64,000 nt of DNA from Microbacterium terrisoli (GTDB taxonomy: Bacteria > Actinomycetota > Actinomycetes > Actinomycetales > Microbacteriaceae): contig NZ_CP133019.1 of the NCBI RefSeq assembly GCF_030866805.1, positions 1 through 64,000 of the forward strand. Reading direction: 5' to 3'. Below, piece after piece: positions 6,979 to 37,693 of this stretch. The notes beneath the pieces were generated by a model. That model did not search any database. It saw only the letters and a list, made by a program, of their open reading frames with translations, and had not been told where the DNA came from. Both the position numbers and the translations under genes were made by a program. Position 1 is the first letter of the stretch, and the number at the start of each line of letters is the position of its first letter.

Positions 6979-9558
6979 ATGGCTGACGACGAACGCCCCA
7001 CCGAAGCACCCGCGCACAACCACGGCAAGATCGACCAGGTCGACCTGCAGGTCGAGATGCAGCGCAGCTATCTCGACTATGCGATGAGTGTCATCGTCGG
7101 GCGCGCCCTGCCGGACGTGCGCGACGGCCTCAAGCCCGTGCACCGCCGCGTGATCTACGCGATGTACGACGGCGGCTACCGTCCCGACAAGTCGTTCTCG
7201 AAGTGTGCGCGCGTGGTCGGCGAGGTCATGGGGCAGTACCACCCGCACGGCGACTCGGCGATCTACGACACCCTCGTCCGGCTCGTGCAGCCGTGGTCGC
7301 TGCGGTACCCGCTCGCCCTCGGCCAGGGCAACTTCGGCTCACCGGGCAACCAGGGCGCCGCCGCCCCGCGGTACACCGAGACGAAGATGGCTCCGCTCGC
7401 GCTGGAGATGGTGCGCGACATCGAAGAAGAGACCGTCGACTTCCAGGACAACTACGACGGTCAGACGCAAGAGCCGGTCGTCCTTCCCTCCCGGTTCCCG
7501 AACCTGCTGGTGAACGGATCGGTGGGCATCGCGGTCGGGATGGCCACCAACATCCCGCCCCACAACCTGCGCGAGGTGGCCGACGGTGCGCTGTGGGCAC
7601 TGGAGCATCCCGAGGCCACTCGTGAAGAGCTGCTGGCCGCGCTGATGCAGCGCATCCCCGGCCCGGACTTCCCGACCTCGGCGCAGATCCTCGGGGTCCG
7701 CGGCATCCACGATGCCTATCGCACCGGGCGCGGATCGATCACGATGCGCGCAGTCGTCGAGGTCGAAGAGATCCAGGGCCGCACGTGCCTCGTGGTCACC
7801 GAGCTGCCCTATCAGGTGAACCCGGACAACGTCGCCGTGAAGATCCGCGACCTCGCGCGCGATGGGCGCATCTCGGGCATCGCCGACATCCGTGACGAGT
7901 CCAGTGACCGCACCGGCCAGCGTCTGGTGATCGTGCTGCGGCGGGATGCCGTGGCCAAGGTCGTGCTGAACAACCTGTACAAGCACACTCAGCTGCAGGA
8001 GAACTTCGGCGCGAACATGCTCGCGATCGTCGACGGGGTGCCGCGCACCCTGCCGCTGGACGGGTTCATCTCGCACTGGGTCACCCACCAGGTCGACGTC
8101 ATCGTGCGCCGCACGCGCTTCCGTCTGCGCAAGGCCGAAGAGCGCATGCACATTCTGCGCGGCTACCTGAAGGCGCTCGATGCCCTCGACGAGGTCATCG
8201 CGCTGATCCGCCGCTCGCCCACGGTCGATGAGGCCCGTGAGGGACTGAAGTCCCTGCTGGAGGTCGATGACGATCAGGCCGACGCGATTCTGGCAATGCA
8301 GCTGCGGCGCCTGGCGGCACTGGAGCGACAGAAGATCATCGACGAGGCCGCCGATCTCGAGGTGCAGATCGCCGACTTCAACGACATCCTCGGCTCGCCC
8401 GAGCGGCAGCGGATCATCATCCGCGACGAGCTCACGCAGATCGTGGACAAGTTCGGCGACGAACGGCGCACGCACATCCTTCCCGGGTACGACGGCGACA
8501 TGTCGGTCGAAGACCTCATCCCCGAAGAGGAGATGGTGGTCACCGTCACCCGCGACGGCTACATCAAGCGCACCCGCAGCGACAACTACCGCTCGCAGCA
8601 CCGCGGCGGCAAGGGTGTGAAGGGCGCGCAGCTGCGCGCCGACGATGTCGTGGAGCACTTCTTCGTGACCACCACGCACCACTGGCTGCTCTTCTTCACC
8701 GACAAGGGGCGCGTGTACCGGGCCAAGGCCTATGAAGTGCCCGAGGCCGGTCGCGACGCGAAGGGACAGCACGTCGCGAACCTGCTGGCGCTGCAGCCCG
8801 AAGAGGAGATCACGCAGATCCTCGACGTGCGGCATTACAACGACGCTTCCTACCTCGTGCTGGCCACGCGCGGCGGCCTGGTCAAGAAGAGCCGGCTGAG
8901 CGACTACGACACCAACCGCCAGGGCGGCATCATCGCGATCCGCCTGCGCGAGGGCGACGAGCTGGTCAGTGCTCTGCTGGTCGATCAGGATGACGAGATC
9001 TTGCTGATCAGCCACCACGGCATGTCGCTGCGGTTCGCGGCGACCGATGAGGCACTGCGTCCGATGGGTCGCTCGACCGAGGGTGTGAAGGGCATGTCGT
9101 TCCGCGAGGGCGACAGTCTGCTTTCGGCGTCGGTGGCAAGCTCCGACGGCTACGTGTTCGTGGTCACCGAAGGCGGTTACGCCAAACGCACCGCAGTGGG
9201 GGAGTACCGCGTGCAGGGGCGTGGCGGACTGGGCATCAAGGTCGCCAAGCTCAACGACGATCGAGGGGGCCTGGCCGGCGGTCTGATCGCCGCCGAGGAC
9301 GACGAGATCTTGGTGGTTCTTGCCAGCGGCAAGGTGGTACGCTCTGCCGTGGCCGAGGTACCTGCCAAGGGTCGAGACACCATGGGTGTCGTGTTCGCCC
9401 GTCCCGACGACGACGACCGGATCATCGCCATCGCGCGCAACTCCGAGCGGGCCGTGGTCGATGAAGACGAAGCGGATGCCTCCGCCACCGATACCGCAGA
9501 ACCAGCGGTGGTAGAGTCCGAGACTTCATCGAACCACGAAGAGAGCACTGACGCATGA
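6979..9558 (+). CDS. gyrA: DNA gyrase subunit A
   Basis: GyrA cuts and rejoins DNA as part of the A2B2 gyrase. The 859-residue product has the breakage-reunion domain with catalytic Tyr132 in [11 protein letters not shown] and a quinolone-determining stretch [11 protein letters not shown] with Ser93 and Asp97, i.e. the residues found in quinolone-sensitive gyrases. The C-terminal beta-pinwheel carries the GyrA-box-like [10 protein letters not shown] (about 540). An acidic Ala/Thr/Glu-rich tail ends the protein. The stop overlaps the start of the DUF3566 gene (ATGA at 9555-9558). Confidence 0.98.
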
Positions 9559-9959
9559 GCACGGTAGCCGACAAGCTCGCCAAGAAATCGACGCACAAGA
9601 CCAGCGCCAAGCAGGTGCGGCTGCGCTTGGTCTACGTGGACTTCTGGTCGGCCGTCAAGCTCTCTTTCCTGGCGGCCATCGCATTGGCCGTCGTGACGCT
9701 GGTGTCGTTCTTCCTCGTCTACATGGTGATCTCGGCCACCGGGCTGATCGGCAAGGCCGACGACCTGTTCAAGAGCATCTCCGGTGGAGGTCAGGCCTTG
9801 TCGTCGATCATCGGCCTGCCACAGGTGATGGGCGTGGCCGCGATCATCGCGATCTTGAACCTGGTGGTCGGCACCGTGCTCGGCGCCGTTGTCGCCGGCC
9901 TCTACAACCTGGCCGTGAAGGTCACCGGCGGCCTGCTGATCGGCTTCACCTCGAACTGA
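9555..9959 (+). CDS. DUF3566 membrane protein
   Basis: The 134-residue protein matches the DUF3566 membrane family whose gene follows gyrA in most actinobacteria. It has a basic cytoplasmic N-terminus ([16 protein letters not shown]), a first membrane segment at about 33-60 and a second at about 95-125. The start codon overlaps the gyrA stop, so it is co-translated with gyrase. Its function is unknown; roles near the divisome have been proposed for relatives, but nothing in this sequence shows that directly. Confidence 0.85.
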
Positions 9960-10897: not shown

Positions 10898-10970
10898 GGG
10901 GCCTTAGCTCAGTTGGTAGAGCACCTGCTTTGCAAGCAGGGGGTCAGGGGTTCGAATCCCCTAGGCTCCA
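10898..10970 (+). tRNA. tRNA-Ala (anticodon TGC)
   Basis: The acceptor GGGGCCT (10898-10904) pairs with AGGCTCC (10963-10969) with one G-U pair; A73 is 10970 and CCA is not encoded. The anticodon arm CCTGC-TTTGCAA-GCAGG gives TGC. Its 3' half from the anticodon arm onward (10927-10971) is repeated exactly at 14446-14490, marking it as the integration target of the element to the right. The tRNA itself remains intact. Confidence 0.97.
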
Positions 10971-10971
10971 C
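10927..10971 (+). repeat. attL: tRNA-Ala 3' segment of the 45-bp direct repeat
   Basis: These 45 bases, from the anticodon stem to one base past the discriminator, are identical to 14446-14490. Bases on both sides differ (T versus C before, A versus T after). A repeat starting in the anticodon arm and ending at the tRNA 3' end is the usual att core of tyrosine recombinases that integrate into tRNA genes. Confidence 0.9.
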
Positions 10972-10984
10972 AAGACACCAAGTC

Positions 10985-11018
10985 AGAGGCTGTTTTACGA
11001 GAGAAAGACGGCCTCTTT
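10985..11018 (+). terminator. Probable terminator after the tRNA genes
   Basis: AGAGGC (10985-10990) pairs with GCCTCT (11011-11016), followed by TTCGTTTC. It lies 14 bases after tRNA-Ala, inside the left end of the inserted element, and could end the tRNA transcript. The stem is short and the T-run broken. Confidence 0.4.
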
Positions 11019-11044
11019 CGTTTCTCCACCACTCTGTGGGACGT

Positions 11045-11429
11045 CACCCGCGACGGTCGCCAGCCCGGGTCGTTGCGGCTCCGAGCAGATCGAGGATCGC
11101 CGCCCCGTTCCTCGGCGCCTGAGACCCTCTCGTAACCGTAGAGGTCCAGCCCCATTGTCGCGAAAACTGCAGGCTGCCCGTTGAATCCCTGGACGTCATA
11201 GAGCTTGGAGGGTTCGGTTCCTGGATAAGCCAGCACTGCGACTGGCGAATGGAGCACTGCGGTCTCGTAGGGGACATTCTGGTTGTACGGGTCGCCAATC
11301 GTCTGGGCCGTGAGGGTGACGTCGGTGAGTCGTGCCTGCACGGTGCCAGCGCCGAACTGCCGCTGGGTGGCCCACGTGATTGGTCGTGCCCTGCGCCTGA
11401 CCGGCGCTAAGCCCGTTGATCTGAGTCAT
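11045..11429 (-). pseudogene. Frameshifted gene of unknown function
   Basis: A start ATG at 11429 follows a strong ribosome site (GGAGAGTTAGAC, itself preceded by GAAGAAGAAGAA) and opens with MTQINGLSAGQAQ. That frame soon becomes low-quality, while a sensible protein continues one frame over near 11375-11341: QFGAGTVQARLTDVTL...VPYETAVLHSPVAVLAYPG...FATMGLDLYGYERVSG. This indicates one frameshift. Downstream of about 11045 the frame runs into the tRNA terminator and tRNA-Ala itself, so the natural 3' end is lost. I do not recognise the family. Confidence 0.45.
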
Positions 11430-11513
11430 GTCTAACTCTCCTTCTTCTTCTTCTTTTCTTGTCGAGTCAGCAGCTGCTTACGGGTCGAGGTGGTTGAGCT
11501 GCCGCGCCCACGC

Positions 11514-11543
11514 AAAAGGCCCACCCCGAAGGGTGGGCCTTTC
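11514..11543 (-). terminator. Rho-independent terminator of the LysM gene
   Basis: AGGCCCACCC (11517-11526) and GGGTGGGCCT (11531-11540) form a perfect 10-bp stem with a 4-base loop. Read on the minus strand the hairpin is followed by TTTT and sits 24 bases after the stop of the LysM lipoprotein gene. On the plus strand it ends in TTTC, so it may work in both directions. Confidence 0.85.
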
Positions 11544-11566
11544 ATGCCGGCGGTTTGCGTGTCGCG

Positions 11567-12067
11567 CTAGTTATCCCACGCCCACGGCTTCGCCGGATCC
11601 GGGCGCAGCTCCAAAATCTCTCCGGGCTGCAGCGTGCGCCCGGTTGCGTGGTTGAACGCGCTGAAAGAATTCAGGTCCATGCAGAAACGGGCGGCAATGG
11701 CATCGAGAGCGTCGCCGGGCTGCACGATGTATGAGACGATCTGCCCGCCGTCGCGCGTCGGCTTGCCAGAGGCGTGGGTGAGTGCGCCTGTATCGGTCAC
11801 CACACCCACGAGCTCGGGTGCTGACACCGGCCGGGTGTTGTACGCGTACGTCGGCATGTTGATGCGGGCCGTAGGCGAGTCCGCGCATGTGGCGGCGCTG
11901 GGCGCTGACTCGACGGCGGTAGGCGCTGGCGCTGATGCGACGGGGGCGTCCTTGGTGGCCGCTGGTGTTCCGTCACTCGCGGGCTCGGCAGTCGCGGTGC
12001 ACCCCGCGAGCGCGCTGGCGAGTGCGACGCCCGCGAGCAGGGTGGTGATCTTCGTGAAGGTGCGCAT
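11567..12067 (-). CDS. LysM-domain lipoprotein
   Basis: The 166-residue protein starts with a lipoprotein signal (MRTFTKITTLLAGVALASALAGC) whose lipobox LAGC places the acylated Cys at 23. A Ser/Ala/Pro-rich linker (about 25-60) and an unassigned middle region lead to a C-terminal LysM-like domain (about 115-160) with YIVQPGDALDAIAARFC and LQPGEILEL. LysM binds peptidoglycan, so the protein should be membrane-anchored outside and attached to the wall. It is one of two intact genes in the att-bounded element and has its own terminator. Substrate and partners are unknown. Confidence 0.8.
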   Translation of the reverse strand: MRTFTKITTLLAGVALASALAGCTATAEPASDGTPAATKDAPVASAPAPTAVESAPSAATCADSPTARINMPTYAYNTRPVSAPELVGVVTDTGALTHASGKPTRDGGQIVSYIVQPGDALDAIAARFCMDLNSFSAFNHATGRTLQPGEILELRPDPAKPWAWDN

Positions 12068-12201
12068 GTCAGCTCCCTGCGTCTGCGGTGATCCGGGCGG
12101 CCAGCTTGTGCGCTTTCGCGCTGTTCTTCACACCGTATGCCTCAACAAGCAGAACCTCGCCATTCCGACCGCGTGGAGTTTGGCCGACTGCACACACACT
12201 G

Positions 12202-12542
12202 CTACTGGGACGCCAGCCCCACCATCGACAGGAGGAACGAACCACCCATGACGCCGAGTACGGCGAGGGATCGTGCCCAGAGGGGGCGTTCCATCAGCAG
12301 GAGTGTGAGGACCGCACCGAGAAGCGGGCTGAAAATCGGCGATGTCAGCGCGAAAGCGAACCCGAGGGGGCGGAAGCTGCCGAGGAACGTGTAGACGCCA
12401 CCGGTCCTCCCGCCTGATCGACGTTGGGCAGAAGCGCCAAGATGGCGACCAGAACCCCCGCGAGCACGATGTTCACGCAGAGTGCCCCTGCAGCATGCCC
12501 GAGATACACAGCCTGCCGAGGGTGCACTGCGGTGGTCATCAC
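12202..12542 (-). pseudogene. Frameshifted membrane-protein remnant, DMT/EamA-like 3' part
   Basis: A start at about 12542 (MMTTAVHPRQ) opens a frame with one hydrophobic segment to about 12405. The continuing membrane sequence is in another frame from about 12402 to 12202: GGVYTFLGSFRPLGF, then two further hydrophobic segments ending MVGLASQ. The second part resembles the last helices of drug/metabolite (EamA) transporters. A one-base frameshift near 12400 would join them. A full EamA protein has 10 helices and about 300 residues, so this is at best a truncated relic. Confidence 0.4.
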
Positions 12543-12715
12543 CCCATCTTGGCGCAGGAGGCCCCGGCGTCGATGGACGTCCGGGGCCTCGCACTTTTTC
12601 CCAGGATCGAGCTACAGGCCCGCCCCAGTTCCAGCGCGTCCGCAAAGCCCGACCCGATCTCCACGGCCTCAGCCGCGGTCGGACGATCGGACGATACGAA
12701 AACCTTCGCTAGGGT

Positions 12716-13154
12716 TCAATACGCGTCGTCAGTGAAGATCGATTCGCCGGCAGTTGCCGCTGCTGACAGGCTGCCTCCGAACCTCTTGTCGAGTCTGCGA
12801 AGCGCACCGTCTCGCGCCGTGACCTCCACGCACCCGTGGCAGTGGCCATCTTCTCGTCCATAGTCGGGGCATGCTGCCCAGTGCTCCCCCTTCTTCGTGC
12901 ACCCCCGGATACAGACTCGGTCGTCGGTGATCCTCGTCTGCGTCGTCTGATTCGTATAACTGTTCGATGTTTACAGGCTGCTCCCCATCGGGTGAACCGT
13001 ATAGACCGCCACCGACATAGGAGACGCACATCTCGGCGTACCGATGTCGGCGAGTGGCGTCTTCGCGTGTGATTGGCGGCAACACGGCCGCACCATCTAT
13101 GCGTGGAGGGGTCAGTCGCTCCGGTCCGGCCGCAGCCAGGTGGTCGACGGTCAT
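12716..13154 (-). pseudogene. Frameshifted Cys/His-rich (phage-type zinc-ribbon) gene
   Basis: ATG 13154 follows the ribosome site GAAGAAGAG and encodes MTVDHLAAAGPERLTPPRI through EQLYESDDADED in one frame. The frame open from 12970 to 12716 then gives the more protein-like segment RVCIRGCTKKGEHWAACPDY, GREDGHCHGCVEVTA and an end at FTDDAY. The Cys/His spacing (CxxxC, CPDY, HCHGC) resembles small zinc-binding proteins of actinobacterial phages and integrated elements. A frameshift around 12920-12960 is the simplest reading; two overlapping genes are the alternative. It diverges from the ATPase gene. Confidence 0.5.
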
Positions 13155-13181
13155 CTCTTCTTCCCGCTGCACCCGAACACA

Positions 13182-13208
13182 CAAGTACACCAAGTACACT
13201 AAGTACAC
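13182..13208. promoter_or_regulatory. Three 9-bp direct iterons upstream of the ATPase gene
   Basis: CAAGTACAC (13182-13190), CAAGTACAC (13191-13199) and TAAGTACAC (13200-13208) are contiguous. They lie between the divergent starts of the Cys-rich gene (13154) and the ATPase gene (13230). The spacing of under one helical turn, the position and the contrast with the GC-rich surroundings suggest an operator or a protein-loading site of the element. Confidence 0.6.
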
Positions 13209-13229
13209 AAGAGTTCACAGGAGGATCAG

Positions 13230-14333
13230 ATGGCAGCTGAGCAGGGGCAAAATCCCTTTCGCCCCACGGCCGGCGCCGAGCCGCCGCAGCTGATCGGCCG
13301 CGCGGGGCTCCTGGACGAGTTCATCTATGGACTGCGGATCCGCTCCGGCGCTCCTGGGCTGCTCACCATCTTCACTGGCGCCAGGGGTATCGGCAAGACG
13401 GTCATGCTGGGCGAGGCGGAGGACGCCGCACGTACTCGAGGCTGGGCCGTGGTGTCAGAGACCGCTACGCGAGGATTCCTGGGCAGGATCGGCGAGTCCA
13501 TGCGCACCATCGCCGAGGAACTCGGAGACGGCCCTGCCGGTCGAAGGGTTACCGGGCTCAGCGCCGCCGGGTTCTCCAGCACCACTGCGTTGCCTCCGCA
13601 GCAGCAGGCTGGCTGGCGCCAGGTGGGCGAACAGCTCCTGCGCCTGCTGGATGCACAGGCGACGGGCCTGGTGATCACGCTGGATGAGATCCACGGTGCC
13701 GATCGGGACGAGCTGGCCCAACTCGCAGCCTCAGTGCAGCACTTCATCCGTGGCGGATTGCCGATCGCCCTCGTCTTCGCAGGACTTCCCGCCGCCGTGT
13801 CCGACCTGCTCAATGAAGGCGTGGCGACCTTCTTGCGACGTGCTGACCGTATCGACCTGCACTCCGCAGCCGTCGACGAGGTCGAGGCCTCGTACGCGGA
13901 GACATTCGCAGCCCTCAGACATCGGCTGGACCCCGCGCTCGTGCGGACCGCCGCGGTGTCAACTGGCGGCTACCCGTTCCTGATCCAGCTGGTCGGCTAC
14001 CACCTCTGGCAGCTGGCTGAAGCCACCGAAGGCCCGCTCACGGCCGAGGACGTCGATCTCGCCCTGACCACCGCTCACCGCCGCAATACCCGTGTCGTCA
14101 TCGACGCTGCGTTGTCTACGGTGTCGCCCAAGGATCTCGACTTCCTACGCGCCATGTCAGTGGACGACACAGCCTCGACGACAGCAGACATCGGCCGGCG
14201 GCTCGGCGACCAGAAGAACACCGTAGGTAATTACCGTGCCCGGCTCATCGATGCCGGCCTCATCCAGCCGGCCGGACGAGGCCGCATCGACTTCGCGCTG
14301 CCCGGCCTGCGCGAGCACCTCCGTCAAACGTGA
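13230..14333 (+). CDS. AAA ATPase with C-terminal winged helix
   Basis: The 367-residue protein begins with a QLIGR motif (about 20-24) typical of Orc/Cdc6- or MalT-like ATPases, followed by Walker A GARGIGKT at 50-57 and Walker B LVITLDEIH at 147-155. The C-terminal 70 residues form a winged-helix module (IGRRLGDQKNTVGNYRARLI). It is intact, preceded by an AGGAG ribosome site at 13218-13222 and by 9-bp iterons, and ends 112 bases before the right att core. Proteins of this type are common in actinobacterial islands, but their function is not established. A regulatory or DNA-loading role is inferred from the architecture. Confidence 0.75.
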   Translation: MAAEQGQNPFRPTAGAEPPQLIGRAGLLDEFIYGLRIRSGAPGLLTIFTGARGIGKTVMLGEAEDAARTRGWAVVSETATRGFLGRIGESMRTIAEELGDGPAGRRVTGLSAAGFSSTTALPPQQQAGWRQVGEQLLRLLDAQATGLVITLDEIHGADRDELAQLAASVQHFIRGGLPIALVFAGLPAAVSDLLNEGVATFLRRADRIDLHSAAVDEVEASYAETFAALRHRLDPALVRTAAVSTGGYPFLIQLVGYHLWQLAEATEGPLTAEDVDLALTTAHRRNTRVVIDAALSTVSPKDLDFLRAMSVDDTASTTADIGRRLGDQKNTVGNYRARLIDAGLIQPAGRGRIDFALPGLREHLRQT

Positions 14334-14359
14334 TATTGCCTTCGGGCGACAGCGCCTGC

Positions 14360-14445
14360 TCAGCGCTCCCGTTCCTGTGCGAACATCGCTGAGCTGACCC
14401 CCTCGAGCAGCTCTCCCGCCTCGACGTCCAGCGCCTCTGCGATGC
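14360..14445 (-). pseudogene. 3' remnant of an XRE-family regulator
   Basis: Read on the minus strand the bases from the att core to 14360 encode RIAEALDVEAGELLEGVS, then SAMFAQERER and a stop. RIAEALDVxxGELL is the closing helix of Cro/C1-type helix-turn-helix domains. Everything upstream of this point is replaced by the att core and host DNA, so the DNA-binding part is missing. The remnant implies that the element once carried, or recombined with, a longer regulator gene reaching across the current right end. Confidence 0.6.
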
Positions 14446-14490
14446 GCTTTGCAAGCAGGGGGTCAGGGGTTCGAATCCCCTAGGCTCCAC
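14446..14490 (+). repeat. attR: second copy of the 45-bp tRNA-Ala segment
   Basis: Identical to 10927-10971 over all 45 bases. It contains the anticodon arm, T arm and 3' acceptor strand but no 5' half, so it cannot make a functional tRNA. It marks the right end of the inserted element; the chromosomal sequence before insertion presumably continued from base 14491. Confidence 0.9.
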
Positions 14491-14520: not shown

Positions 14521-15141
14521 TCAAGCGAGTCCGTGAATCTCGGCGAACGGATCCCACGCCGGGTCTTCGTGTATCTCGACCTCGGCACGCGTAGTGACCT
14601 CATGCGTAACGGCGCTGCCGAACAGGTGTGTGAGCAGTGCGGCGGCCATGTCCATGCCAGCCGCGATACCCGATGAGGTCCATCGGTCGCGGTCCTGCAC
14701 CCATCGTGCGTGGGCGACCCACTCGACCTTGTCGTTTCGGCGGCGTACCCAGTCGAAGGCGGCCTTGTTCGAGGTCGCTCTGTAGCCGTCGAGCAACCCG
14801 GCGGCGGCGAGGACCGCGGATCCCGTGCATACCGAGGTCACAAGCGAAGCCGGCTCCGCCCAGGCTCTCAGCCAGGACAAGAACGCCTGGTCGCTCACGA
14901 GTCGACGGGTGCCTTGGCCTCCGGGCACGAGTAGGATGTCGGGGGCCGTGGCAACCTCGTAGCTGTCGGTCGCAACCACCTGAACTCCCTGGCTGCTGAC
15001 GACCGGTCCCGGCTCTGGCCCGATGAACTCGACCGCCATGCGGTCGCCGACAAGGCTGAACAGCTCCACCGGACCGAACACGTCCAGCAACTCGAACCCG
15101 TCGAACAGCACAACGGAGATACGACGTGGCTCCTCGCTCAT
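14521..15141 (-). CDS. DJ-1/PfpI family protein
   Basis: The 206-residue protein MSEEPRRISVVLFDG... has the class-I glutamine-amidotransferase-like fold of the DJ-1/PfpI family, as found at the N-terminus of AraC-type regulators and in isocyanide hydratases. The nucleophile Cys is in SLVTSVCTGSAVLAAAG, with LLDGYRATSNK following. The start at 15141 is preceded by GGGAGAA; an upstream start at 15258 would add 39 atypical residues. It lies just outside the right att core. Substrate unknown. Confidence 0.8.
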   Translation of the reverse strand: MSEEPRRISVVLFDGFELLDVFGPVELFSLVGDRMAVEFIGPEPGPVVSSQGVQVVATDSYEVATAPDILLVPGGQGTRRLVSDQAFLSWLRAWAEPASLVTSVCTGSAVLAAAGLLDGYRATSNKAAFDWVRRRNDKVEWVAHARWVQDRDRWTSSGIAAGMDMAAALLTHLFGSAVTHEVTTRAEVEIHEDPAWDPFAEIHGLA

Positions 15142-15254
15142 GGTTCTGATTCTCCCGCAGAGCGATCTAAAAGCAGGGCCGCCACGGTCACCGCGAGGCA
15201 GACAACCCCATCCAACCTCCAACCGCCTGCCTGACCCCCACCACACCAAACCCC

Positions 15255-15350
15255 TCAAGCCGGCGCGAGCGGGTGCGCGCGCTCGTCACGGTTCCGGCGC
15301 AGCGCACGGGCGACCGCTTCGAGCACCTGCTCGGTCGCCGTCTGTGCCGG
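15255..15350 (-). pseudogene. Possible 3' remnant of an unknown gene
   Basis: On the minus strand the frame reads LPAQTATEQVLEAVARALRR, NRDERAHPLAPA and stop, which looks like a normal helical protein end. There is no start codon, and a stop lies just upstream. It may be a decayed gene fragment in the 245-base gap between the DJ-1 gene and the LOG gene. Otherwise this gap shows nothing recognisable. Confidence 0.25.
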
Positions 15351-15386: not shown

Positions 15387-16007
15387 TCAGTCACTCGGCG
15401 TCGGATCGCTGTTCCGGCTCGTGCCGTCCGAGATGCTCGCGGCGGCGCTGTTCGAGACGGCGCTGCTCGCGGCGGCGCTGAGCTCGATGGTCGCCAGCAC
15501 CTGCGCGGGCTGGTCGACGAAGCTGCACAGCTGCGCCAGGGGGACCGGCAAGAAGCCCTCGGCATCCATGCGGGTGAACTGTGCCTGCAGCCCGTCGTAG
15601 AAGCCGTCGGTGTTCAACACCACGACCGGACCTGTGTACAGAGAGTGCTTGCGCAGCTCGAGCACTTCGGTCGCCTCGTCGAGGGTGCCGGTGCCGCCGA
15701 CCATGATGACGACCGCATCGCTGCGGCCGAGCATCGCCGCCTTGCGCTCGGCGAGGTTCGCGGCGATCTCCATCTCGTCGGGCGCGTGCAGCGTGCGGGC
15801 CTGGGAGGCCAGAAAGTCGACCGAGATGCCGATCATCCGCCCGCCGGCCGCGTCGACCGCGTCGGCCAGGACCTTCATCAGCCCGACCTCGCTCGCGCCC
15901 CACACCAGGGTGTGCCCTCCCGCGGCGATCAGCCGCCCGAGCTCTCGGGCGGCATCCGTGTAGCGGGCATCGAGTTCGGCGGCCGAGAGAAACACACAGA
16001 TGTTCAC
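15387..16007 (-). CDS. LOG family protein
   Basis: LOG proteins are Rossmann-fold phosphoribohydrolases that release bases such as cytokinins from nucleoside monophosphates; many bacterial members are annotated as TIGR00730. The 206-residue product shows the GGTGTLDE motif at 104-111 (family PGGxGTxxE) and the conserved E-R...K region earlier. The last 35 residues (SAAASSAVSNSAAAS...) are low complexity and are encoded partly by a 16-bp direct repeat at 15435-15450 and 15465-15480, probably a late extension. Substrate in this organism unknown. Confidence 0.85.
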   Translation of the reverse strand: MNICVFLSAAELDARYTDAARELGRLIAAGGHTLVWGASEVGLMKVLADAVDAAGGRMIGISVDFLASQARTLHAPDEMEIAANLAERKAAMLGRSDAVVIMVGGTGTLDEATEVLELRKHSLYTGPVVVLNTDGFYDGLQAQFTRMDAEGFLPVPLAQLCSFVDQPAQVLATIELSAAASSAVSNSAAASISDGTSRNSDPTPSD

Positions 16008-16023: not shown

Positions 16024-17133
16024 TCACACCCGGGTCAGACCGTGCGGCGAGATGTTCAGCCGCTCGCAGCCGTCGGCGGTGACGATGACGATGTCTTCGA
16101 TGCGCGCGCCCCACTGGCCGGGGAAGTAGATGCCGGGTTCGATGCTGAACGCCATGCCTTCGCGCAGTACGAGAGCATTGCCGGGCGCGATGTAGGGCTC
16201 TTCGTGCACGGACAGGCCGATGCCGTGCCCGGTGCGGTGGATGAACGCGTCGGCCAGGCCTTCGGCCGCAAGCGCAGTGCGGGCCGCGGCATCCACCTGT
16301 TCCGCCGTCACGCCCGGACGCACAGCGTCGACGGCCGCCTGCTGGGCGCGCACCAGCACGTCGATGCGCCGCGCGGCCTCAGCATCGGGCGTGCCGACCG
16401 CGTACGTGCGGGTGCTGTCGGAGTTGTAGCCCGCGGGCACCGCGCCGCCGATGTCGACCACGACGATGTCGCCGTCCACGATGATGCGGTCCGATACCTC
16501 GTGGTGCGGGTCGGCGCCATTCGGGCCCGACCCGACGATGACGAACTCCACGGTGCGGTGACCCTCTTCGACGATGGCCGCGGCGATGTCGGCGGCCACT
16601 TCGCGCTCGGTGCGTCCCGCTCGCAGCCACCCCGGCACGCGGCGGTGCACGGCGTCGATCGCTGCGCCCGCGCGTCGCAGTTCGGCGATCTCGGCGGCAT
16701 CCTTGACCATGCGGCCCTCGCGCAGCACCGGTGTGGCCAGCTCGAGCCGCACGTCCAGGCGGTTCTGGATCGGGACCATGTGCAGTGCGGGCAGCGCGTC
16801 CGACACGGCGACGCGGGTGACGGCCGCTGAGACCGCGCGGGCGATCAGGTCATACGGGTCTTCGCCGTCGACCCAGTCGTCGATCTCGAGATCGAGCGCC
16901 CCGACGGCGGTGTCGCGCACCTTGGCGAGCTCCATCCGCGGGACGATCACACGCGGGCGAGCGTCATGACCGATCACGAGCGCGGTCAGTCGCTCGATCG
17001 TGTCGCCTTCGACCCCGGTGAGGTAGGCGAGGTCGGGACCGGGGCCCACGATGAGGGCGTCGATGCCCGCTTCGACGGTCAGGTGGTGTGCGCGGTCAAG
17101 GCGAGCCGCATAGACATCGGAAGAGAAGGTCAC
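16024..17133 (-). CDS. M24 family Xaa-Pro aminopeptidase
   Basis: This cytosolic dimetal peptidase should remove N-terminal residues before proline. The 369-residue protein has an N-terminal creatinase-like domain (about 1-135) and the pita-bread catalytic domain. Metal-ligand motifs are visible: VVDIGG and NSDSTRTY (two Asp), TGHGIGLSVHEEP (His), SIEPGIY (Glu) and ARIEDIV (Glu). It starts with ATG at 17133. There is no signal peptide. Confidence 0.9.
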   Translation of the reverse strand: MTFSSDVYAARLDRAHHLTVEAGIDALIVGPGPDLAYLTGVEGDTIERLTALVIGHDARPRVIVPRMELAKVRDTAVGALDLEIDDWVDGEDPYDLIARAVSAAVTRVAVSDALPALHMVPIQNRLDVRLELATPVLREGRMVKDAAEIAELRRAGAAIDAVHRRVPGWLRAGRTEREVAADIAAAIVEEGHRTVEFVIVGSGPNGADPHHEVSDRIIVDGDIVVVDIGGAVPAGYNSDSTRTYAVGTPDAEAARRIDVLVRAQQAAVDAVRPGVTAEQVDAAARTALAAEGLADAFIHRTGHGIGLSVHEEPYIAPGNALVLREGMAFSIEPGIYFPGQWGARIEDIVIVTADGCERLNISPHGLTRV

Positions 17134-36243: not shown

Positions 36244-37693
36244 GGGCCAACGGTACCCGGCTGCGCACGCCGCCGGAATCCCCGCGTGACGGGGCGCCGG
36301 GCCGCACCGCGGTGATCGCGGCCGTCGTCAGCGCCGCAGCGACGACCCACGCCGACGGGTTCGATCCGCCCAGCAGCGCGAGCACGACCCCGGCCACGCC
36401 GCACACGACGGCGCCCACGGCGCGGCCCGTGCCGACGGCGGGCCATCCGGCGTCACGCCGCAGCTCGACGACGCCGGCCACGCGGACCACGGCCCACACG
36501 GCAGCACCCACCACGGCGAACCACAGCGGACGCGCGAGCCACCAGTCCGGTGTCAGTGGCACGGGCAGGTCGACCGGCAGCAGCAGCAATGCGCCGGCGA
36601 GGGCGATGACCACGAGCATGTGCCACGAATAGATCGTCATCGCGCGCAGGTTCATCCAGGCGACGGCGGCGGCCACGCGAGGTCGCTCCGCCCAGTCGCG
36701 CAGCCGGCCGCGCACCGACAGGAAGATCATCGTCTGTGCGATGCCGACCAGCACCAGCGCCCCCTGCGGCGGGTTGAGGGCCTCCAGCAGGTTGACGGAG
36801 AAGAATCCGGCGAGCATGCCGGTCGCCAACAGCGCGATCGCGCCGGCGACGATCATGGCGCGCACGCGCCCCGAGAGCCCGTCGAACGACCCGTCGGCCA
36901 AGGCGAACCCCAGCTGCTGCAGCAGCAGCCACACGAACGCCATGTTGATGAGCCCGAAGGCGGCAGCGCCCGTCGAGACCCCCACGATGTCGACGCCGAT
37001 CACACCGGCCGCGAGCACTGCGATCGTCAGGTGCGGATGTGTCTCGTGCCACCGCATCATGAACGGCACGAGCGCGCTGCACCCGAGGTACACGGCCAGG
37101 AACCACAGGGGCTGGCCGATGTGGAACCCTGCCGTCGCGACCACCTCGGCCGGCACCCCGCAGACCACGAGCGTCGCCAGGAACACCGCCGCCGCGGCCA
37201 CTGCCGCCGCGGTCGGCAGCAGCAGCCGCCGCAGCCGGCCGGCGATGTACTCCGTGGCGGTGCGTCCGCGGTCGCGTTCGCGGCTGAACTGGGTGTAGGC
37301 GGCAAACCCGCCCAGCACGAAGAACAACGGCATGATCTGGGCGAGCCACGTGAGCGCCGCGAAGCCCGGCCAGCCCTCCATCGCGTTGGCCAGCACCGGG
37401 GCGCCCAGCGCGTCGCGACTGACGCCGGCCATCAGGGAGTGCAGCAGCACGACGAGCACCAGCAGCATCGCGCGCACGGCGTCCACCGACCCGTCGCGGT
37501 GGGCCCGGGATGCCGCGTGCCGCGACGCTGCCGCGGCACGCGACGCGGCAGCGGCAGACGGGGCAGCGCCAGACGTTGCAGTGCTGAACCGGGCGGTGCT
37601 GAACCGGACAGTTCTGGACCGAGCAGTGCTGGGCCGGACAGTGCTGGACCGGACAGTGGACGCGGGCTGTGACACGCGTTCGCGCAGGGACAT
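36221..37693 (-). CDS. Acyltransferase-3-family membrane protein
   Basis: The 490-residue protein carries the acyltransferase-3 domain with about ten membrane segments; RAMLLVLVVLLHSLMAGV resembles the family's first helix with its conserved His. Such enzymes O-acylate sugars or lipids outside the cell. The first 66 residues are Ser/Thr/Arg/Ala-rich and partly encoded by five 15-bp tandem repeats (37581-37655). It overlaps the GNAT gene, so the two are probably co-expressed. Confidence 0.82.
   Translation of the reverse strand: MSLRERVSQPASTVRSSTVRPSTARSRTVRFSTARFSTATSGAAPSAAAASRAAAASRHAASRAHRDGSVDAVRAMLLVLVVLLHSLMAGVSRDALGAPVLANAMEGWPGFAALTWLAQIMPLFFVLGGFAAYTQFSRERDRGRTATEYIAGRLRRLLLPTAAAVAAAAVFLATLVVCGVPAEVVATAGFHIGQPLWFLAVYLGCSALVPFMMRWHETHPHLTIAVLAAGVIGVDIVGVSTGAAAFGLINMAFVWLLLQQLGFALADGSFDGLSGRVRAMIVAGAIALLATGMLAGFFSVNLLEALNPPQGALVLVGIAQTMIFLSVRGRLRDWAERPRVAAAVAWMNLRAMTIYSWHMLVVIALAGALLLLPVDLPVPLTPDWWLARPLWFAVVGAAVWAVVRVAGVVELRRDAGWPAVGTGRAVGAVVCGVAGVVLALLGGSNPSAWVVAAALTTAAITAVRPGAPSRGDSGGVRSRVPLAHGAYRAS
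37581..37655. repeat. 15-bp tandem repeat within the acyltransferase gene
   Basis: Five consecutive 15-bp units share the consensus GTGCTGRACCGGACA (37581, 37596, 37611, 37626 and 37641). On the minus strand they encode pentapeptide copies such as VRSST and ARFST at about residues 13-38. The unit is a multiple of three, so copy-number change would keep the frame. Confidence 0.85.

Follow-up and report, generated by a model that had tools for sequence, protein, structure and literature searches.

Two kinds of described system come closest to the unit considered here. Cis-mobilizable elements (CIMEs) are defined, in the part of PMC5704250 that was available, by the loss of the integration and transfer genes with the attachment (att) sites being kept. 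The island finder Islander requires an integrase besides a displaced fragment of a tRNA gene, according to the available part of PMC4383910. The present unit lies in the genome of Microbacterium terrisoli, in a stretch of 64,000 nucleotides (contig NZ_CP133019.1, positions 1 to 64,000; the whole stretch is referred to as the window), where it fills 3.5 kb directly behind tRNA-Ala(TGC) between two exact copies of the 3' part of this tRNA gene. It is CIME-like in structure and ordinary in kind, and sits in an integration slot that is used genus-wide. It was probably formed by tyrosine-recombinase insertion into tRNA-Ala(TGC) and subsequent decay to an integrase-less remnant.

As in a CIME, att-like copies stand at both ends of the unit, no integration gene was found in it, and no transfer-type family was found among the frames that were scanned, which are part of the unit's frames. 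It differs from a CIME, as far as the available text of PMC5704250 describes one, in having no accreted helper and in contents that are part phage and part plasmid type; descent from an integrative and conjugative or an integrative and mobilizable element is unsupported. Like the Islander islands it has a 3' piece of the tRNA gene displaced to the downstream side; this piece keeps the orientation of the gene and starts in the anticodon stem. Its configuration, orientation, length (3,519 bp, within the range of 2–200 kb) and ends conform to the Islander rules, judged by reading PMC4383910 as far as it was available; the integrase rule is the one from which it departs, with no PF00589 match between the copies. 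No published report of this locus was found in the literature, including the available parts of PMC4383910, PMC5704250, PMC9030533 and PMC9897764, which does not prove that there is none.

The duplicated end of tRNA-Ala(TGC)

ARAGORN and Rfam call a single intact tRNA-Ala (anticodon TGC), at 10898..10971 on the + strand. Its 3' part, 10927..10971 (the left, attL-like copy), recurs exactly at 14446..14490 (the right, attR-like copy) on the same strand and 3,519 bp away, and no tRNA is called at this second copy. The 45-bp block consists of tRNA positions 30–73 and one flanking base, starts in the anticodon stem, and is confined to these two places in the single-contig genome of 3,625,519 bp. 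The next longest exact match to the tRNA gene in the window, counting both strands, is just 11 bp, and chance is therefore excluded as the source of the repeat. The duplication had been noted in a preliminary description of the window and is borne out. The same description had reported that no integrase lies between the copies, and a search of the entire genome for PF00589 (tyrosine recombinase) and PF00239 (serine recombinase) agrees, giving no match within the unit. It had also placed the site about 11 kb from oriC. The window opens at base 1 with a frame that we take to be DnaA, and three DnaA-box-like words occur at 1451–1630, so that the tRNA-Ala site lies ~11 kb from there, as had been proposed.

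The integration event, the crossover point and the order of loss are what we infer from this arrangement. A mobile element would have entered the 3' half of tRNA-Ala(TGC) by way of a tyrosine recombinase, the strands being exchanged in or close to the anticodon loop. It would have brought a replacement 3' half for the tRNA, seen as the left copy, the original half being displaced to form the right copy. The integrase and most other genes would have been lost afterwards, so that the plasmid-type ATPase, the LysM lipoprotein, the tail of a repressor and a fragment of a phage gene remain. An origin of the integrase type is supported because the fragment extends from the anticodon stem to the end of the tRNA, lies in the same orientation, and is matched by islands of relatives at the same place. 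The tyrosine-recombinase origin put forward in the preliminary description is thus upheld by the downstream 3' fragment, its orientation and the same-tRNA islands of five relatives; the continued mobility that went with it is not.

Integration at the same tRNA across the genus

The genus set comprised 366 genomes, the window's own included, and tRNA matches were obtained in 59 of the 59 genus genomes searched. Relatives of the integrase from genome G272 occur at E <= 1e-60 in 18 of the 366, the window's genome not being among them. Five of these 18 loci adjoin tRNA-Ala(TGC), 11 have a tRNA-Gly nearby and two are without a tRNA in the stretch. The five tRNA-Ala(TGC) islands (G272, G101, G347, G130 and G191) encode a tyrosine integrase next to the tRNA and measure 6.4–10.4 kb, with second copies of 51, 51, 48 (with one mismatch), 51 and 47 nt, respectively. 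By blastn, G272, G347 and G130 have in common ~4.3 kb that extends inwards from the tRNA, and ~110 bp of the opposite end; ~3 kb of this common DNA is present in G101, in two blocks, and ~1.1 kb in G191, in two blocks at the tRNA end. The cargo varies among the five islands. That of G272 holds a C5 methylase and an Eco29kI-type endonuclease (L119, 3639–5449). The DNA past the distal copy of G101 matches the DNA directly behind tRNA-Ala in G001, G198 and G208, and occupied and empty states are therefore both visible at this tRNA.

The window's unit resembles these islands in its tRNA, in the side on which it lies and in the second copy of the tRNA 3' part. It differs from them in size, in lacking an integrase beside the tRNA, and in its DNA, none of which is held in common with the five islands, or with the G043 unit described below, by blastn at E <= 1e-5. 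Comparison with the islands by tblastx yields many short, scattered and weak matches (best summed E 9e-12, to G130), which were judged to be noise of G+C-rich composition. Kinship with the five islands was rejected for want of common DNA by blastn, and the unit was therefore put in place by another element or has lost the parts that could be recognised.

A further unit occurs in G043 (L085, 11912–15865), where 2,192 bp separate an intact tRNA-Ala from a fragment of tRNA positions 29–73 and a full-length divergent tRNA-Ala then follows. The two units are alike in the tRNA used, in the 45 nt of its 3' part, in having no PF00589 match (G043 has three in its genome, none on the contig of the unit) and in having no good distal hairpin. 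The G043 unit differs in its length of 2.2 kb, its Abi-like gene and the tandem second tRNA-Ala. The Abi-like frame reaches 23.0 bits with Abi_2 (cut-off 25.6) and matches PADLOC PD-T4-5 at E 5e-10; a second frame has the look of a transposase to us and no Pfam match.

Among 60 site loci compared, tRNA-Ala(TGC) was located by blastn in 58 (not in L122 and L146), and three of the loci (G272, G101 and G043) also contain a partial second copy of the 3' part. A fourth row with a partial copy, L129, is a divergent tRNA of G118's own and was not counted. In the 38 of these loci that show tRNA-Ala together with the next conserved gene, all picked for a match to that gene, the two are 21 bp to 14.9 kb apart (median ~10 kb). 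The slot behind tRNA-Ala is therefore variable, and the picture of a conserved gyrA-tRNA neighbourhood drawn in the preliminary description has to be given up.

The tRNA itself is unusual. A callable tRNA-Ala(TGC) is present in 76 of the 78 genomes examined, with AT at positions 44–45 in 75 and G118 alone departing. The window's tRNA departs from the commonest version of the genus at positions 26, 44, 45, 52 and 62, and at each of these has the base of the tRNA-Ala(GGC) of its own genome (L164, 11135–11210); G118 has all five departures and five more changes in the T-arm. The right copy holds the four departures that fall within the block. With up to three mismatches allowed, the 44-mer of the tRNA 3' part is found in one of the 366 genomes, namely its own. 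The exact 44-mer gave no match in viral_contigs or in genome_contigs, which may not include the own genome. Since the right copy bears the unusual sequence and the 44-mer is unique, the copy arose with or after the change in the tRNA. The change probably predates the element, because G118 has it with no second copy in its stretch.

Gene content and flanks of the unit

The unit is a mosaic in which genes of mobile type, some broken and some open, are combined, among them a plasmid-type ATPase, a phage-gene fragment and a repressor tail. The two genes previously listed as intact, the LysM lipoprotein and the AAA ATPase, are indeed both open frames. At the left end, a stop-to-stop frame (10964..11425, - strand) contains a fragment of a rare protein, best at 11105–11260, with 96% identity to P0001 over 63% of the query and 75% to P0002 over 44%. 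These relatives are rare proteins of 194 and 99 aa that belong to no family. The N-terminal residues of P0002 are, by eye, absent from the frame, which has no assignment in Pfam, NCBIfam or PADLOC; a McrC-like nuclease, considered for this fragment, finds support in no library and is not claimed. The LysM-domain lipoprotein (11567..12067, - strand, 166 aa; PF01476) has a single relative besides itself, 50% identical, from Microbacterium sp. JZ70, and no match among plasmids or phages. It is followed by an open frame without a family match in the library scans (12202..12645, - strand), for which an EamA-type transporter was likewise considered, is supported by no library, and is not claimed. 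An 84-aa stop-to-stop frame (12719..12970, - strand) starts like gp24 of Microbacterium phage Min1, with 78% DNA identity over a 122-bp stretch (12801–12922) among the matches listed; after this start it diverges, and its tail looks unrelated by eye.

The AAA_16 ATPase (13230..14333, + strand, 367 aa; Pfam) has a weak HTH_36 match at its C-terminus, below the cut-off. Among the matches listed, plasmid genes of Citricoccus and Arthrobacter are 66–73% identical to it in DNA sequence along most of its length. Relatives of 82% identity occur in G224, G223 and G159 with no tRNA in the 20 kb around each, that of G224 between two frames which we take to be helicase-like and acyl-CoA-dehydrogenase-like. 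A phage or plasmid carrying the whole unit was sought and no record covers 80% of it: matches to the tRNA aside, the listed records (20 of 1083 and 20 of 471) contain just the ATPase, on plasmids, and the 122 bp, on phage Min1.

Directly before the start of the ATPase gene lie 9-bp phased direct repeats (13183..13219, + strand). Phased direct repeats of 9–10 bp are seen right before the start codon in several homologues (L074 ~9553–9596, L077 ~6380, L081 ~9850 and L158 ~1930), and their sequence differs from one homologue to another (GTACAC, ATTAACC and AGAGTCTAA types). When the repeats were scored against 200 base shuffles, none of the shuffles reached the score in three of 23 loci (the window, G026 and G169); the remaining 20 were weaker or non-significant, and in G224, G223 and G159, where repeats had been noticed by eye, they were not outstanding. 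A self-regulatory operator role for these repeats is a guess.

The last frame, ending at the core, is the putative tail of a Cro/cI-type helix–turn–helix protein (14363..14443, - strand), with an HTH_3 match of E=0.018 and 15.5 bits against a cut-off of 23 (residues 1–24 of 39). The frame continues into the tRNA copy to 14479, such that its first 11 residues are tRNA-coded and lie within the HTH_3 match. Prophages with attP inside the repressor gene show integration-dependent immunity. A repressor gene of this type spanning attP was rejected here, because a stop codon in the tRNA-coded part stands directly upstream of the frame, which is not open across the core.

Behind the intact tRNA there is a terminator-like hairpin (10985..11016, + strand). 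The region contains three terminator-like sites where 2.2 are expected by shuffling, which is non-significant alone. Relatives commonly have a hairpin in this position: of 71 distinct flanks of an intact tRNA-Ala, 58 score at least 14 on the scale used here and 13 score less, four of these at 8.6 or below. Three distal copies were scored, giving 20.5 (G272), 23.7 (G101) and 8.7 (G043). The native flank is undecidable by hairpins, as the DNA behind the tRNA of the G101 island holds one and 13 of the 71 flanks hold none. To the right of the second copy, outside the repeats, are a DJ-1/PfpI gene (14521..15258, - strand) and a LOG/lysine-decarboxylase-family gene (15387..16007, - strand), both possibly accessory here, and then a conserved gene (16024..17133, - strand) that follows tRNA-Ala in many relatives and is presumably Xaa-Pro-peptidase-like. 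Elsewhere in the window, ARAGORN reports a doubtful tRNA with no assignable amino acid (37163–37257, - strand).

Origin of the unit and its meaning

Several points weigh against insertion into tRNA-Ala(TGC) and decay in place. The unit and the five islands are without common DNA at the blastn threshold given above. As the 44-mer occurs in no other genome of the genus, an attP from outside would have needed an exact match. The alignment to relatives that had been suggested for finding an empty site carrying the window's own right flank (10971 joined to 14491) gave none among the 366 genomes. There is no good hairpin behind the right copy (score 8.6), a weak argument because 13 of the 71 intact flanks also score below 14. 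Finally, the genes beyond the right copy are possibly accessory as well, which leaves the right boundary unproven. Two relatives of the DJ-1/PfpI gene were found (G254 and G082), both on stretches without a tRNA, and two of the LOG gene (G042 and G068), on stretches with tRNA-Gln; with their relatives located elsewhere, foreign DNA may extend past 14490.

These flanking genes lend themselves to a different account, in which the second copy is the internal junction of a larger tandem insert that is foreign from 10972 to ~16010 and has lost its outer att, the 3.5-kb unit being one of two accreted pieces. The settings of the four relatives and, as a weak point, the poor hairpin of the right copy are in keeping with this, and G043 provides a precedent with its intact tRNA, partial copy and full-length divergent tRNA-Ala in tandem. 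However, no exact 14-mer of the core occurs on the + strand from 14491 to the end of the window, and the DJ-1/PfpI relative of G254 is close to one end of its 10.6-kb contig, its wider setting unseen. Furthermore, at seven of eight compact sites the next conserved gene stands 0.6–2.0 kb from tRNA-Ala and there is no partial copy, so that extra genes behind tRNA-Ala need no att site. A larger insert is rather unlikely on this evidence.

The unit might instead be a functional CIME, excised and re-inserted by an integrase acting in trans, as the preliminary description had envisaged. The 45-bp copies are identical, CIMEs are defined in the available part of PMC5704250 by att sites that are kept while the integration and transfer genes are lost, and integrases for tRNA-Ala(TGC) exist in the genus. 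The resident recombinases, however, offer little to such a reading. PF00589 matches seven stretches in six proteins of the genome, two of which are Xer-type (one scores above the XerD cut-off; the other scores best with XerC, below the cut-off of that family). Of the other four, one is without a tRNA in the surrounding 20 kb and three have a tRNA close by: tRNA-Ala(GGC) at 155 bp, tRNA-Pro at 91 bp and tRNA-His at ~0.6 kb. All six are distant from the G272 and G101 integrases: the longest alignments (369, 341 and 290 aa) have 26%, 27% and 27% identity, respectively, and that of the XerD-type protein (197 aa) has 29%. The proposed search of the genome for a matching integrase gave no close PF00589 protein, and a resident helper is unsupported as far as this family goes (26–29% identity over the longer alignments); the genome has four PF00239 matches, all outside the unit. 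An integrase from the side of tRNA-Ala(GGC) would face an anticodon loop with three of seven bases different, and no DNA of the islands, not even of their ends, can be recognised in the unit. With no close resident integrase, no island DNA and no empty site, present mobility is very improbable.

Nor is an element adjacent to tRNA-Ala(GGC) a suitable source of the copy. Of the 45 core positions, seven are different in that tRNA, including three of the anticodon loop, and the search for a second copy of its own end gave nothing besides other alanine tRNAs, the copy in the window and matches that were short and weak. In other genomes, tRNA-Ala(GGC) is followed at 2.3 kb by an exact partial copy of 37 nt (G118:C1 1529874–1532252), and a 36-nt exact stretch of this tRNA lies ~84 kb away (G178:C1 1910161–1994325). 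The tRNA-Ala(GGC) gene may thus be a second integration site, though the G118 and G178 matches could belong to other tRNA genes.

A duplication of the tRNA end by illegitimate or homologous recombination, with no integrase involved, would account for a copy that bears the genome's own unusual tRNA sequence and for a right flank that is not hairpin-like, but its ends at the anticodon stem and the tRNA 3' end, its downstream position, its orientation and its place in the slot of integrase islands leave it a slimmer chance still. The slightest prospect of all is given to an att-only cassette resident in the lineage, excisable in trans and kept in step with the host tRNA as the two co-evolve.

Insertion by a tyrosine recombinase and subsequent decay remains the likely history of the unit, and it places the window among several states of one site. 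The tRNA-Ala(TGC) gene, ~11 kb from the origin end of the window, is a repeatedly used integration site in the genus, at which integrase-bearing, integrase-less and empty states coexist. Finders that demand an integrase, Islander for example, would overlook remnants of this kind. That both copies hold the same unusual 3' half of the tRNA provides a small handle on the co-adjustment of elements and the tRNA genes that they enter.

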